In this document: piece after piece, positions 27,862 to 54,688 of the stretch | How positions within the stretch are numbered: position 1 is the stretch's first letter | Layout: each line of letters starts with the position of its first letter | Assembly (NCBI RefSeq): GCF_000423705.1 | Contig: NZ_AUIM01000004.1 | Location: 434,001 to 498,000 of the forward strand | DNA from: Stappia stellulata DSM 5886 | GTDB lineage: Bacteria > Pseudomonadota > Alphaproteobacteria > Rhizobiales > Stappiaceae | Length of the DNA stretch: 64,000 nt | Direction of reading: 5' to 3' | Notes under the pieces: generated by a model | The model's database searches: none | Told to the model about the DNA's origin: nothing | The model's input: the letters and a program-made list of their open reading frames with translations, nothing else | Program-made: the position numbers and the translations under genes

Positions 27862-27890
27862 TTGTGGAACAAGGCGAGAACGGCTAGACT
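27862..27890 (+). promoter_or_regulatory. lexA promoter with SOS box
   Basis: GAAC-AAGGCGA-GAAC (27867-27881) is the reverse complement of the alphaproteobacterial LexA operator GTTC-N7-GTTC. It lies between a -35-like TTGTGG (27862-27867) and a -10-like TAGACT (27885-27890), 17 bases apart. LexA binding here would block RNA polymerase, the expected autoregulation. Confidence 0.82.
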
Positions 27891-27943
27891 ATGTTCATGA
27901 TTTGTCCGTAGTCTGAGTCGAATGGCATTGGGGATCCCGTCGG

Positions 27944-28654
27944 ATGTTGACGCGCAAGCAGCACGAATTGCTCCTGTTTATCCATGAGCGTCTCAAGGAA
28001 ACCGGTGTCCCGCCATCCTTCGACGAAATGAAGGATGCCCTCGACCTGCGCTCCAAGTCGGGCATCCATCGCCTGATCACGGCGCTGGAGGAACGCGGCT
28101 TCATCCGCCGGTTGCCCAATCGCGCGCGCGCGCTCGAAATCGTGAAGCTGCCGGAATCGGTCGCGCCGGGGCTCGCCGCACCGCGCAGCCAGGGATTTTC
28201 GCCCTCCGTGATCGAAGGCTCGCGCGGCAAGACGCCGCCCGCTGCCGCCCGGCCTGCCGTTCCGGACACCGACAGCGTGACGATAGCGGTGATGGGGCGC
28301 ATCGCCGCCGGCGTGCCGATCGAGGCGATCCAGTCCCACAGCCACACGATCTCCATGCCTGCCGACCTTCTCGGGTCCGGCGAGCATTACGCGCTTGAGG
28401 TGCGCGGCGATTCCATGATCGACGCTGGCATTCTGGACGGCGACACCGTCGTCATCCGCAAGTCGGACAGCGCCGACAGCGGCGACATCGTCGTCGCTCT
28501 GATCGACGACGAGGAGGCCACGCTCAAGCGGCTGCGCAAGAAGGGCGAATCCATTGCGCTCGAGGCGGCCAACCCGGCCTATGAGACGCGCATCTTCGGT
28601 CCGGGCCGTGTCCGCGTTCAGGGCAAGCTGATCTCTCTCTTCCGTCGCTACTGA
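27944..28654 (+). CDS. lexA: LexA repressor
   Basis: A 236-residue SOS repressor. The N-terminal winged helix is [17 protein letters not shown], with the recognition region [15 protein letters not shown]. The self-cleavage bond is Ala122-Gly123 in [10 protein letters not shown]. The Ser157-Lys195 dyad lies in GDSMID and ATLKRLR. A linker of about 45 residues separates the domains, longer than in E. coli and usual in Rhizobiales. It should repress itself, through the box at 27867, and the small membrane-protein gene at 53155-53271, which has the same box. It converges on comEC with only 16 bases between stops. Confidence 0.97.
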
Positions 28655-53154: not shown

Positions 53155-53271
53155 TCATATCCGGGCGAGTTCCACCAGCACATCGCTCCAGATCAGCATC
53201 GTCGCTCCCATCAAAACCAGGGATCCAAGTGCCGCCAGGTCCTGAAGTGTCTCTCGAAAATCGTCGAGCAT
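53155..53271 (-). CDS. Putative 38-residue single-span membrane protein, SOS-controlled
   Basis: A short ORF with good initiation signals: GGGAGG lies 5-6 bases before ATG 53271 and the stop is TGA at 53155-53157. The product begins MLDDFRETLQDL, continues with one hydrophobic segment (LAALGSLVLMGATMLIW) and ends SDVLVELARI. It is therefore a small bitopic membrane protein with an acidic/amphipathic N-terminus. A consensus LexA box sits inside its promoter. No family is recognised. By analogy only, tiny SOS-induced membrane proteins such as Caulobacter SidA (29 residues) block cell division. It precedes dnaE on the same strand. Coding status is inferred from the ribosome site, promoter and hydrophobic pattern together. 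Confidence 0.6.
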   Translation of the reverse strand: MLDDFRETLQDLAALGSLVLMGATMLIWSDVLVELARI

Positions 53272-53306
53272 GGTGCCCTCCCGCGTCTCTAACCCTCGAT
53301 GGAATC

Positions 53307-53335
53307 ATAATGTTCATGTTTTGTTCCTTTTGCAA
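53307..53335 (-). promoter_or_regulatory. SOS promoter (LexA box) of the 38-residue protein gene
   Basis: GTTC-ATGTTTT-GTTC (53312-53326) is an exact GTTC-N7-GTTC LexA operator. On the minus strand TTGCAA (53335-53330) and CATTAT (53312-53307) form a -35/-10 pair 17 bases apart, with the box between and overlapping the -10. Transcription would start near 53300, giving a leader of about 30 bases before ATG 53271. Confidence 0.75.
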
Positions 53336-53460: not shown

Positions 53461-53489
53461 TTGACGTTTGCGCCCGCAATCCCGATCTT
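53461..53489 (+). promoter_or_regulatory. Candidate promoter of the guanidine riboswitch / SMR gene
   Basis: TTGACG (53461-53466) is followed after 17 bases by GATCTT (53484-53489). The -10 is weak, but a start near 53496 would place the first riboswitch hairpin at the very 5' end of the RNA, as expected for this class. Confidence 0.4.
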
Positions 53490-53500
53490 GACCGGATCAA

Positions 53501-53546
53501 GAGGACGACCTCCCCACCATGGGCAAATTCACCGGGACGACCCGGT
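53501..53546 (+). ncRNA. Guanidine-II riboswitch (mini-ykkC)
   Basis: Two consecutive hairpins each carry the diagnostic ACGR tetraloop. The first is GAGG-ACGA-CCTC (53501-53512). The second is ACCGGG-ACGA-CCCGGT (53531-53546), after an 18-base linker. The Shine-Dalgarno GGGGAG begins 4 bases after the second stem and is followed by the start codon of an SMR transporter gene. In known guanidine-II riboswitches the two ACGR loops bind guanidinium and each other, freeing the ribosome site. Architecture, loops and downstream gene all agree, so the call is strong despite the short first stem. Confidence 0.9.
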
Positions 53547-53559
53547 CATGGGGAGCGCC

Positions 53560-53871
53560 ATGTCCTGGATCCTTCTGATAGTCGCCGGTCTGCTCGAGGT
53601 CGTCTGGGCCTTCGCGATGAAGCTGTCCGCCGGGTTCACACGCCCCGGCCCGACCCTTCTCATGCTCGCCGCGATGGCCGGATCCTTCACGCTGCTCGCG
53701 ATTGCCATGCGCAGCTTGCCGCTCGGGACCGCCTACATGATCTGGACGGGCATCGGCGCGGTGGGGGCGTTCGTCGTCGGGATCGGATTTCTCGGCGAGG
53801 AGCTGTCGCTGCAAAGACTGTTTGCCGCGGGGCTGATCGTTGCCGGAATGGTGGCCATGAAGCTGTCGTGA
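53560..53871 (+). CDS. gdx: SMR family guanidinium exporter (Gdx/SugE)
   Basis: A 103-residue, four-helix inner-membrane antiporter. The essential Glu13 is in AGLLEVVWAFAMK. The Gdx-type signature LPLGTAYMIWTGIGAVGA is present at about 53-70, which separates guanidinium exporters from EmrE-type multidrug pumps. The ATG at 53560 is chosen because GGGGAG is 4-5 bases upstream; ATG 53548 lies in the riboswitch exit and is less likely. Expression is probably switched on by guanidinium through the riboswitch directly upstream. It works as a dual-topology dimer, exporting guanidinium in exchange for protons. Confidence 0.93.
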   Translation: MSWILLIVAGLLEVVWAFAMKLSAGFTRPGPTLLMLAAMAGSFTLLAIAMRSLPLGTAYMIWTGIGAVGAFVVGIGFLGEELSLQRLFAAGLIVAGMVAMKLS

Positions 53872-53971
53872 ACCGCGCAGCCGACGTCGGTACGGCGCGC
53901 GCATCGCATCGTGCTCCCCGCATCGCAGTCGCCGGTCTGATCGCGGTTCAGAGTTCCACGACCTGCCGGAC

Positions 53972-54684
<713 letters not shown>

Positions 54685-54688
<4 letters not shown>

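Follow-up and report, generated by a model that had tools for sequence, protein, structure and literature searches.

The window, a stretch of 64,000 nucleotides from Stappia stellulata DSM 5886, contains a short open reading frame (sORF) directly in front of dnaE, which is the next gene downstream and follows after a gap of 168 nt (Table 1). The product of the sORF, MLDDFRETLQDLAALGSLVLMGATMLIWSDVLVELARI, has a computed hydropathy of 1.98. The ORF of 38 codons with its one hydrophobic segment, the preceding GGGAGG and the position upstream of dnaE were all found where the first-pass annotation of this DNA had placed them. Purine-rich stretches like GGGAGG were seen by eye before the start in many relatives. 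Between the sORF and dnaE no terminator was found with a generic terminator scan, and the folding of the RNA in this interval barely beats that of shuffled sequences (z -1.83). As a separate feature of the region, AGAGTTCCACGACCTGCCGG is present twice, 24 nt apart, spanning the 3' end of the lolD-like gene (window 53950-53993).

Table 1. Genes and sequence elements around the sORF, in window coordinates
Feature	Position	Strand	Remarks
sORF, 38 codons, putative SidA-type single-pass membrane protein	53155..53271	-	hydrophobic core predicted at residues 12-29
GGGAGG ribosome-binding site	53277..53282	-	read from sequence; start ATG at 53271
-10 hexamer CATTAT	53307..53312	-	read from sequence; first base shared with operator
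LexA-type operator (predicted)	53312..53326	-	GTTCATGTTTTGTTC on +, GAACAAAACATGAAC on gene strand
-35 hexamer TTGCAA	53330..53335	-	read from sequence; 9 nt before operator
dnaE, DNA polymerase III alpha subunit, 1146 aa	49546..52986	-	downstream of sORF; name from reading translation
SugE/SMR-like gene	53461-53871	+	between lolD-like gene and sORF; name from reading translation
lolD-like ABC transporter gene	53972..54688	-	upstream of sORF; name from reading translation

Conservation and purifying selection of the sORF

A protein search which covered 61 genomes, the window's own included, matched the sORF in all 13 congeners and in 43 of the 61 genomes overall at E up to 10, the weakest matches requiring inspection. 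A dnaE motif was present downstream of the sORF in 30 of 30 loci from this search and a lolD-like motif upstream in 17 of them. Eleven weaker matches were fetched, nine of which carried both operator and dnaE; L078 and L079 are chance matches and were left out of the locus counts.

For the analysis of selection, 15 pairs of close relatives were picked by eye, 11 from the window's order and four from f35, f129 and the Caulobacteraceae. Over these family pairs 113 synonymous and 27 non-synonymous changes were counted (about 26% synonymous expected; pS 0.288, pN 0.024), with 21, 8 and 111 changes at the three codon positions. The sORF frame is under strong purifying selection (simple binomial p ~4e-42). 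The 11 pairs of the order alone account for approximately 77.5 synonymous and 21.5 non-synonymous changes, summed by hand; one of the 15 pairs shows no change at all, and the pair L037/L038 has 11 of each type. The first-pass annotation had proposed to look in related genomes for the reading frame, the box, the gene order and a synonymous bias: frame, operator and order with dnaE are kept, and the bias is present.

It is near certain that the sORF is a real gene. A chance ORF beneath a chance match to GTTCN7GTTC could draw on the frequency of this pattern, which is no higher than expected, and on the 86- and 107-aa ORFs on the opposite strand and the 117-aa ORF in another frame which overlap the sORF, but selection in the frame and the conserved operator and synteny leave this explanation with a negligible probability.

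Operator and promoter

On the gene strand the operator has the form GAAC-AAAACAT-GAAC and lies between the two promoter hexamers, which are spaced by 17 nt, just as the first reading of the sequence had described it. A generic promoter scan did not detect the sORF promoter, the site being absent at the 9/12 cut-off. A promoter survey of relatives, for which 71 loci were given and 67 were usable, showed that 44 loci have TTG exactly 9 nt ahead of the box and 49 have CANNNT at the -10 place.

The assertion that the same operator type occurs in the lexA promoter of the window was also correct: the exact box GAACAAGGCGAGAAC begins 77 nt upstream of lexA, located at 27944 (+) and identified by a LexA motif plus reading of the translation. 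Beside the exact box, the lexA upstream region (window 27867-27907) contains a second near-match, GTTCATGATTTGTCC, at 27893. Elsewhere in the genome two boxes of this type were found between ssb and uvrA (genes named by reading), the sole clear known SOS pair recognised among 12 stretches around boxes, which were mostly AT-rich. The boxes at lexA and ssb/uvrA indicate that the operator type is in use in the genome of S. stellulata DSM 5886.

The count of the operator pattern was rejected as evidence, since GTTCN7GTTC is hardly commoner than the control, with three occurrences versus 2.09 expected in the window and, genome-wide, 124 versus 113 for the reversed control pattern. Its significance derives from conservation across relatives. 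In three locus sets the 150 nt upstream contained the exact GAACN7GAAC in 28 of 30, nine of nine and 18 of 25 loci; it is missing in two of the 30 loci from the protein search, where the other 28 have it in the same orientation, and in seven of the 25 from an order-wide profile search (see below). Within the 92,856 nt of the 30 loci the gene-strand pattern was found exclusively at those upstream sites, while the opposite orientation occurred 12 times, of which five in that 150-nt interval. The sORF is very likely under LexA control. In four loci of family f194 (L129, L131, L132 and L134) the operator reads GAACN7ATAC, with its second half altered, for which reason LexA control there may be weaker or changed.

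Distribution of the family and its relation to SidA

A profile, A1, was built from 25 window-type members of 32-38 aa which share one invariant W. It matched 207 of the 297 genomes of the window's order at E up to 0.5 and 104 of them at E up to 0.001 (hand count). The 25 loci from this order-wide search, which overlap in part with the genomes of the earlier protein search, include 22 with the dnaE motif and 16 with both motif and exact operator. Class-wide, 141 of 387 genomes were matched at E up to 0.5, mostly by chance; 30 loci were returned, seven with the box and five with the box plus the dnaE motif. L081 and L088 possess the box and a dnaE outside the motif and are true members by reading, family f30 having been added from reading L088; L312 was rejected as a chance match.

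As the class-wide profile matches were mostly due to chance, selected dnaE upstream regions were surveyed instead. This survey comprised 80 class loci (L039-L068, L135-L184), 73 of which had a readable dnaE start. The combination of SOS box, short hydrophobic ORF and dnaE was detected in 18 of the 73, in families f1, f24, f29, f35, f42, f60, f79, f93, f125, f129 and f131, and was absent in 55. Ten more loci (L185-L194) were picked for having profile matches. In a DnaE tree of 46 loci (four of 50 were left out as too short or unreadable) the carriers do not form one clade, and their distribution takes five changes, at least three of them forced, with many forks open. Such a scatter is what an old gene with losses would produce, repeated gain appearing less likely.

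Family f79 represents the Caulobacteraceae, as a DnaE stretch from L214 matches a contig labelled Caulobacter without a single difference over 333 residues. In Caulobacteraceae loci a short ORF of about 29-32 aa (likeliest start) is located just before dnaE. Among named loci with at least 67% DnaE identity to a Caulobacter query (L225-L276), a SidA-like ORF precedes dnaE in 51 of 52, scored with an HMM which was itself built from members of that set and earlier Caulobacteraceae loci; the exact box lies within 500 nt in 43 of these 51 and is missing in eight. In the 28 remaining named loci, which come for the most part from Rhodobacteraceae and other alphaproteobacteria, the profile found no SidA-like ORF, and L286 alone has the box plus another short ORF; two of the named loci come from one MAG. 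NF033228, the NCBIfam model div_inhib_SidA, matches the Caulobacter vibrioides control genome and assigns 59.7 and 57.5 bits to two Caulobacter ORFs (cutoff 35). These matches to ORFs before the Caulobacter dnaE mean that sidA itself occupies the address of the sORF. So far as consulted, the literature agrees with this address: in C. crescentus itself sidA is CCNA_02004 (PMC10769358) and dnaE is CC1926 (PMC1839093), and the two genes are presumably neighbours there. The first-pass annotation had asked whether the Caulobacter sidA locus is comparable, and with SOS box, short membrane protein and dnaE in Caulobacteraceae it is. In one genus of this family (g87; L195-L198, L217, L220) all six loci examined have a tandem pair of SOS boxes, 18 nt apart, in front of the SidA-like ORF.

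Several lines of sequence comparison connect the two families. Window-type and SidA proteins have the motif R-[DE]-x-x-A-[LF]-x-S in common, and hhalign aligned 19 columns of their profiles (74.8%, E 2.6e-5). In shuffle controls, no more than five of 500 shuffled versions scored as high as the original for 17 of the 23 SidA sequences tested with the window-type HMM and, in the reverse test, for 13 of 25 window-type members tested with the SidA HMM, results which are not independent because the sequences are related. Poor controls were obtained for h1, h5, h6, h20 and h24 (158-325 of 500), h2, h7 and h19 (46-77) and s21 (115). Families f35 (SRWFQDIAALASVAAMGWTVLLWSEIAKAAVAG) and f29 have a tryptophan at the SidA position as well as one at the position of the window protein, and score with both HMMs. 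More K/R residues were found N-terminally in 18 of 25 window-type members (none reversed, seven ties) and in 21 of 23 SidA proteins (none reversed). Outside the order, f42 scores with both HMMs and f93 and f129 gave mixed shuffle results; f60, f125, f131 and L286 have box, short ORF and dnaE with little or no sequence link, and f60, f125 and f131 were not counted as shown family members.

Model searches delimit the likeness. No match to NF033228 was obtained for the window ORF at E up to 1, nor for the 25 members of A1 at E up to 10. These members likewise lack the FVWM core motif, and their tryptophan stands about five residues later than in SidA. In the 387 class genomes the model scores above its cutoff in one and at E up to 0.01 in four. 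Apart from this, NCBIfam gave one weak YmiC match (E 0.043) for the 25 members, Pfam one sub-threshold, unrelated SelB match and no SulA match at E up to 1 for four proteins, and PHROGs nothing for the window ORF and, for the phage-type copy, one weak family of no assigned function (E 0.047). Since NF033228 misses all 25 members, the family is not SidA by the NCBI definition and was filed as a divergent SidA-type family. Taken in a broad sense, SidA is characterized by a position before dnaE, a LexA-type operator and a short single predicted transmembrane helix with its N-terminus inside, all of which the sORF has; sequence homology is seen at moderate strength, several members failing when taken alone.

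Short hydrophobic helices easily resemble one another, and it is with this caveat that we regard the sORF as a likely homolog of SidA, on the basis of profiles and linking families, and probably an ortholog of the Caulobacter gene. What the first-pass annotation had suggested was a protein with the role of SidA, without asserting a likeness in sequence. The suggestion finds support in the position, the operator and the size, and profiles and intermediate families extend it towards probable homology. The description of the protein as undescribed holds for annotation, where none of the 25 members matches the SidA model, but perhaps not entirely for the literature, as an sORF in the dnaE1 5'-UTR of S. 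meliloti has been reported (PMC10117765).

Proposed function and comparison with known systems

FtsW is the reported target of SidA, the peptide that halts the division of Caulobacter cells with broken DNA. By analogy, LexA bound between the -35 and -10 hexamers would repress the sORF; upon DNA damage RecA would be activated, LexA cleaved and the sORF expressed. The resulting inner-membrane protein of 38 residues, with a predicted N-in, C-out orientation, may then bind the septal peptidoglycan synthase complex (FtsW/FtsN), and division would be delayed until repair. A single SEDS (FtsW/RodA family) match, G000:C2:315214-316245, was found in the genome and taken as FtsW, which is in line with the Rod complex reported missing in Rhizobiales (PMC8546619). 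LexA binding, induction, membrane topology, FtsW/FtsN binding and division arrest are inferred steps of this model. That the product acts as a division inhibitor is likely by homology, and the reading as a whole, an inner-membrane inhibitor of division which is of a divergent SidA type and repressed by LexA, appears to us to be well favoured by the comparisons.

Ribosome profiling in S. meliloti revealed a translated sORF25 in the dnaE1 5'-UTR (PMC10117765). Going by its position, it is probably the same gene as the window sORF, and if so, translation is already demonstrated. The authors of that study suggest a possible uORF role for sORFs located in 5'-UTRs, the one at dnaE1 among them (PMC10117765). 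A LexA-controlled leader tuning dnaE1 expression in cis, with an incidental peptide, would agree with this suggestion and with the location of the sORF within the dnaE 5' region without a terminator being found. We consider it improbable, however, as the amino acid sequence of the peptide is conserved, the distance to dnaE varies, the hydrophobic helix has a conserved charge asymmetry and relatives exist on viral contigs with no dnaE nearby.

These relatives comprise MIIRD-[LI]-LALGSL... peptides on three IMG/VR contigs, encoded near repressor-like genes and on two of the three near SSB (labels by reading). No LexA-type box was detected within 300 nt upstream of the viral peptides and no dnaE motif in the approximately 6 kb read on the three contigs, one of which, L329, shares a stretch with the bacterial locus L313. 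The occurrence of dnaE-free relatives in viral contigs argues for a peptide acting in trans. Altogether SidA-like peptides not adjoining dnaE were observed in L329-L331 (3001-3090), L309, L313, L315 and L316, i.e., in viral contigs and f194 genomes. Their context is partly prophage, and they are possibly phage-borne division inhibitors. A search of phage records with the phage-type copy returned two Yersinia phage records (E 8), and plasmid records returned none.

TisB is a single-helix SOS peptide of the membrane-active toxin kind, and an antisense RNA is usual for TisB/DinQ-type toxins. An SOS-induced small membrane protein of such another function, be it a TisB/DinQ-type toxin or a protein regulating some membrane enzyme, whose likeness to SidA would be convergent, has precedents, e.g., DinQ (PMC3567139), and the sequence link to SidA is short; the genomic place, operator type and linking families shared with SidA make this explanation unlikely. 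The divergent SidA-type inhibitor remains the reading we prefer.

Going further, we lean towards a broader scenario, in which SidA would represent, for the Caulobacterales, one branch of an ancient SOS checkpoint gene of the alphaproteobacteria that is kept beside the replicative polymerase. It would have been overlooked in the window's order since it is so short, reports of LexA-regulated dnaE would partly reflect it, and temperate phages would have taken it up to stop host division. If true, SidA extends far past the range of the NCBI model, and two published observations are reinterpreted, the ribosome-profiled orphan sORF of S. meliloti (PMC10117765) and the SOS regulation credited to dnaE, which is listed as SOS-regulated in C. 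crescentus (PMC3323433). In our view the C. crescentus box belongs rather to sidA, from which transcription may read through into dnaE. Literature searches, as far as the texts were accessible, yielded no account of how the large order of the window halts division after DNA damage; the conserved candidate sORF makes this directly testable by knockout.

Among known damage-induced inhibitors, SulA, a soluble FtsZ inhibitor, was rejected because the sORF product has a hydrophobic helix and the Pfam search gave no SulA match. DidA of Caulobacter likewise is a small membrane protein which appears upon DNA damage and inhibits division, but it has 71 residues and is SOS-independent, being activated by DriD (PMC4211646); identity with DidA was rejected in view of the 38 aa and the conserved LexA-type operator of the sORF. 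YneA, SosA and ChiZ are small damage-induced membrane proteins of late division for which FtsW binding was shown or modelled, yet they belong to other phyla, and SidA is modelled on the opposite side of FtsW TM7 (PMC13396833). sORF25 of S. meliloti, which is also an alphaproteobacterium, is short, translated and located at the same position; here the likeness is one of position, a uORF was proposed, and SOS and SidA are unmentioned in the main text (PMC10117765). Compared with the 29 residues of SidA, the product of the sORF is longer, with 38 residues, has a shifted tryptophan, lacks FVWM and is not matched by NF033228. What it shares with SidA of C. crescentus is the tiny single helix, the LexA-type operator, the position directly before dnaE, as seen in Caulobacteraceae loci, and the motif R-[DE]-x-x-A-[LF]-x-S.
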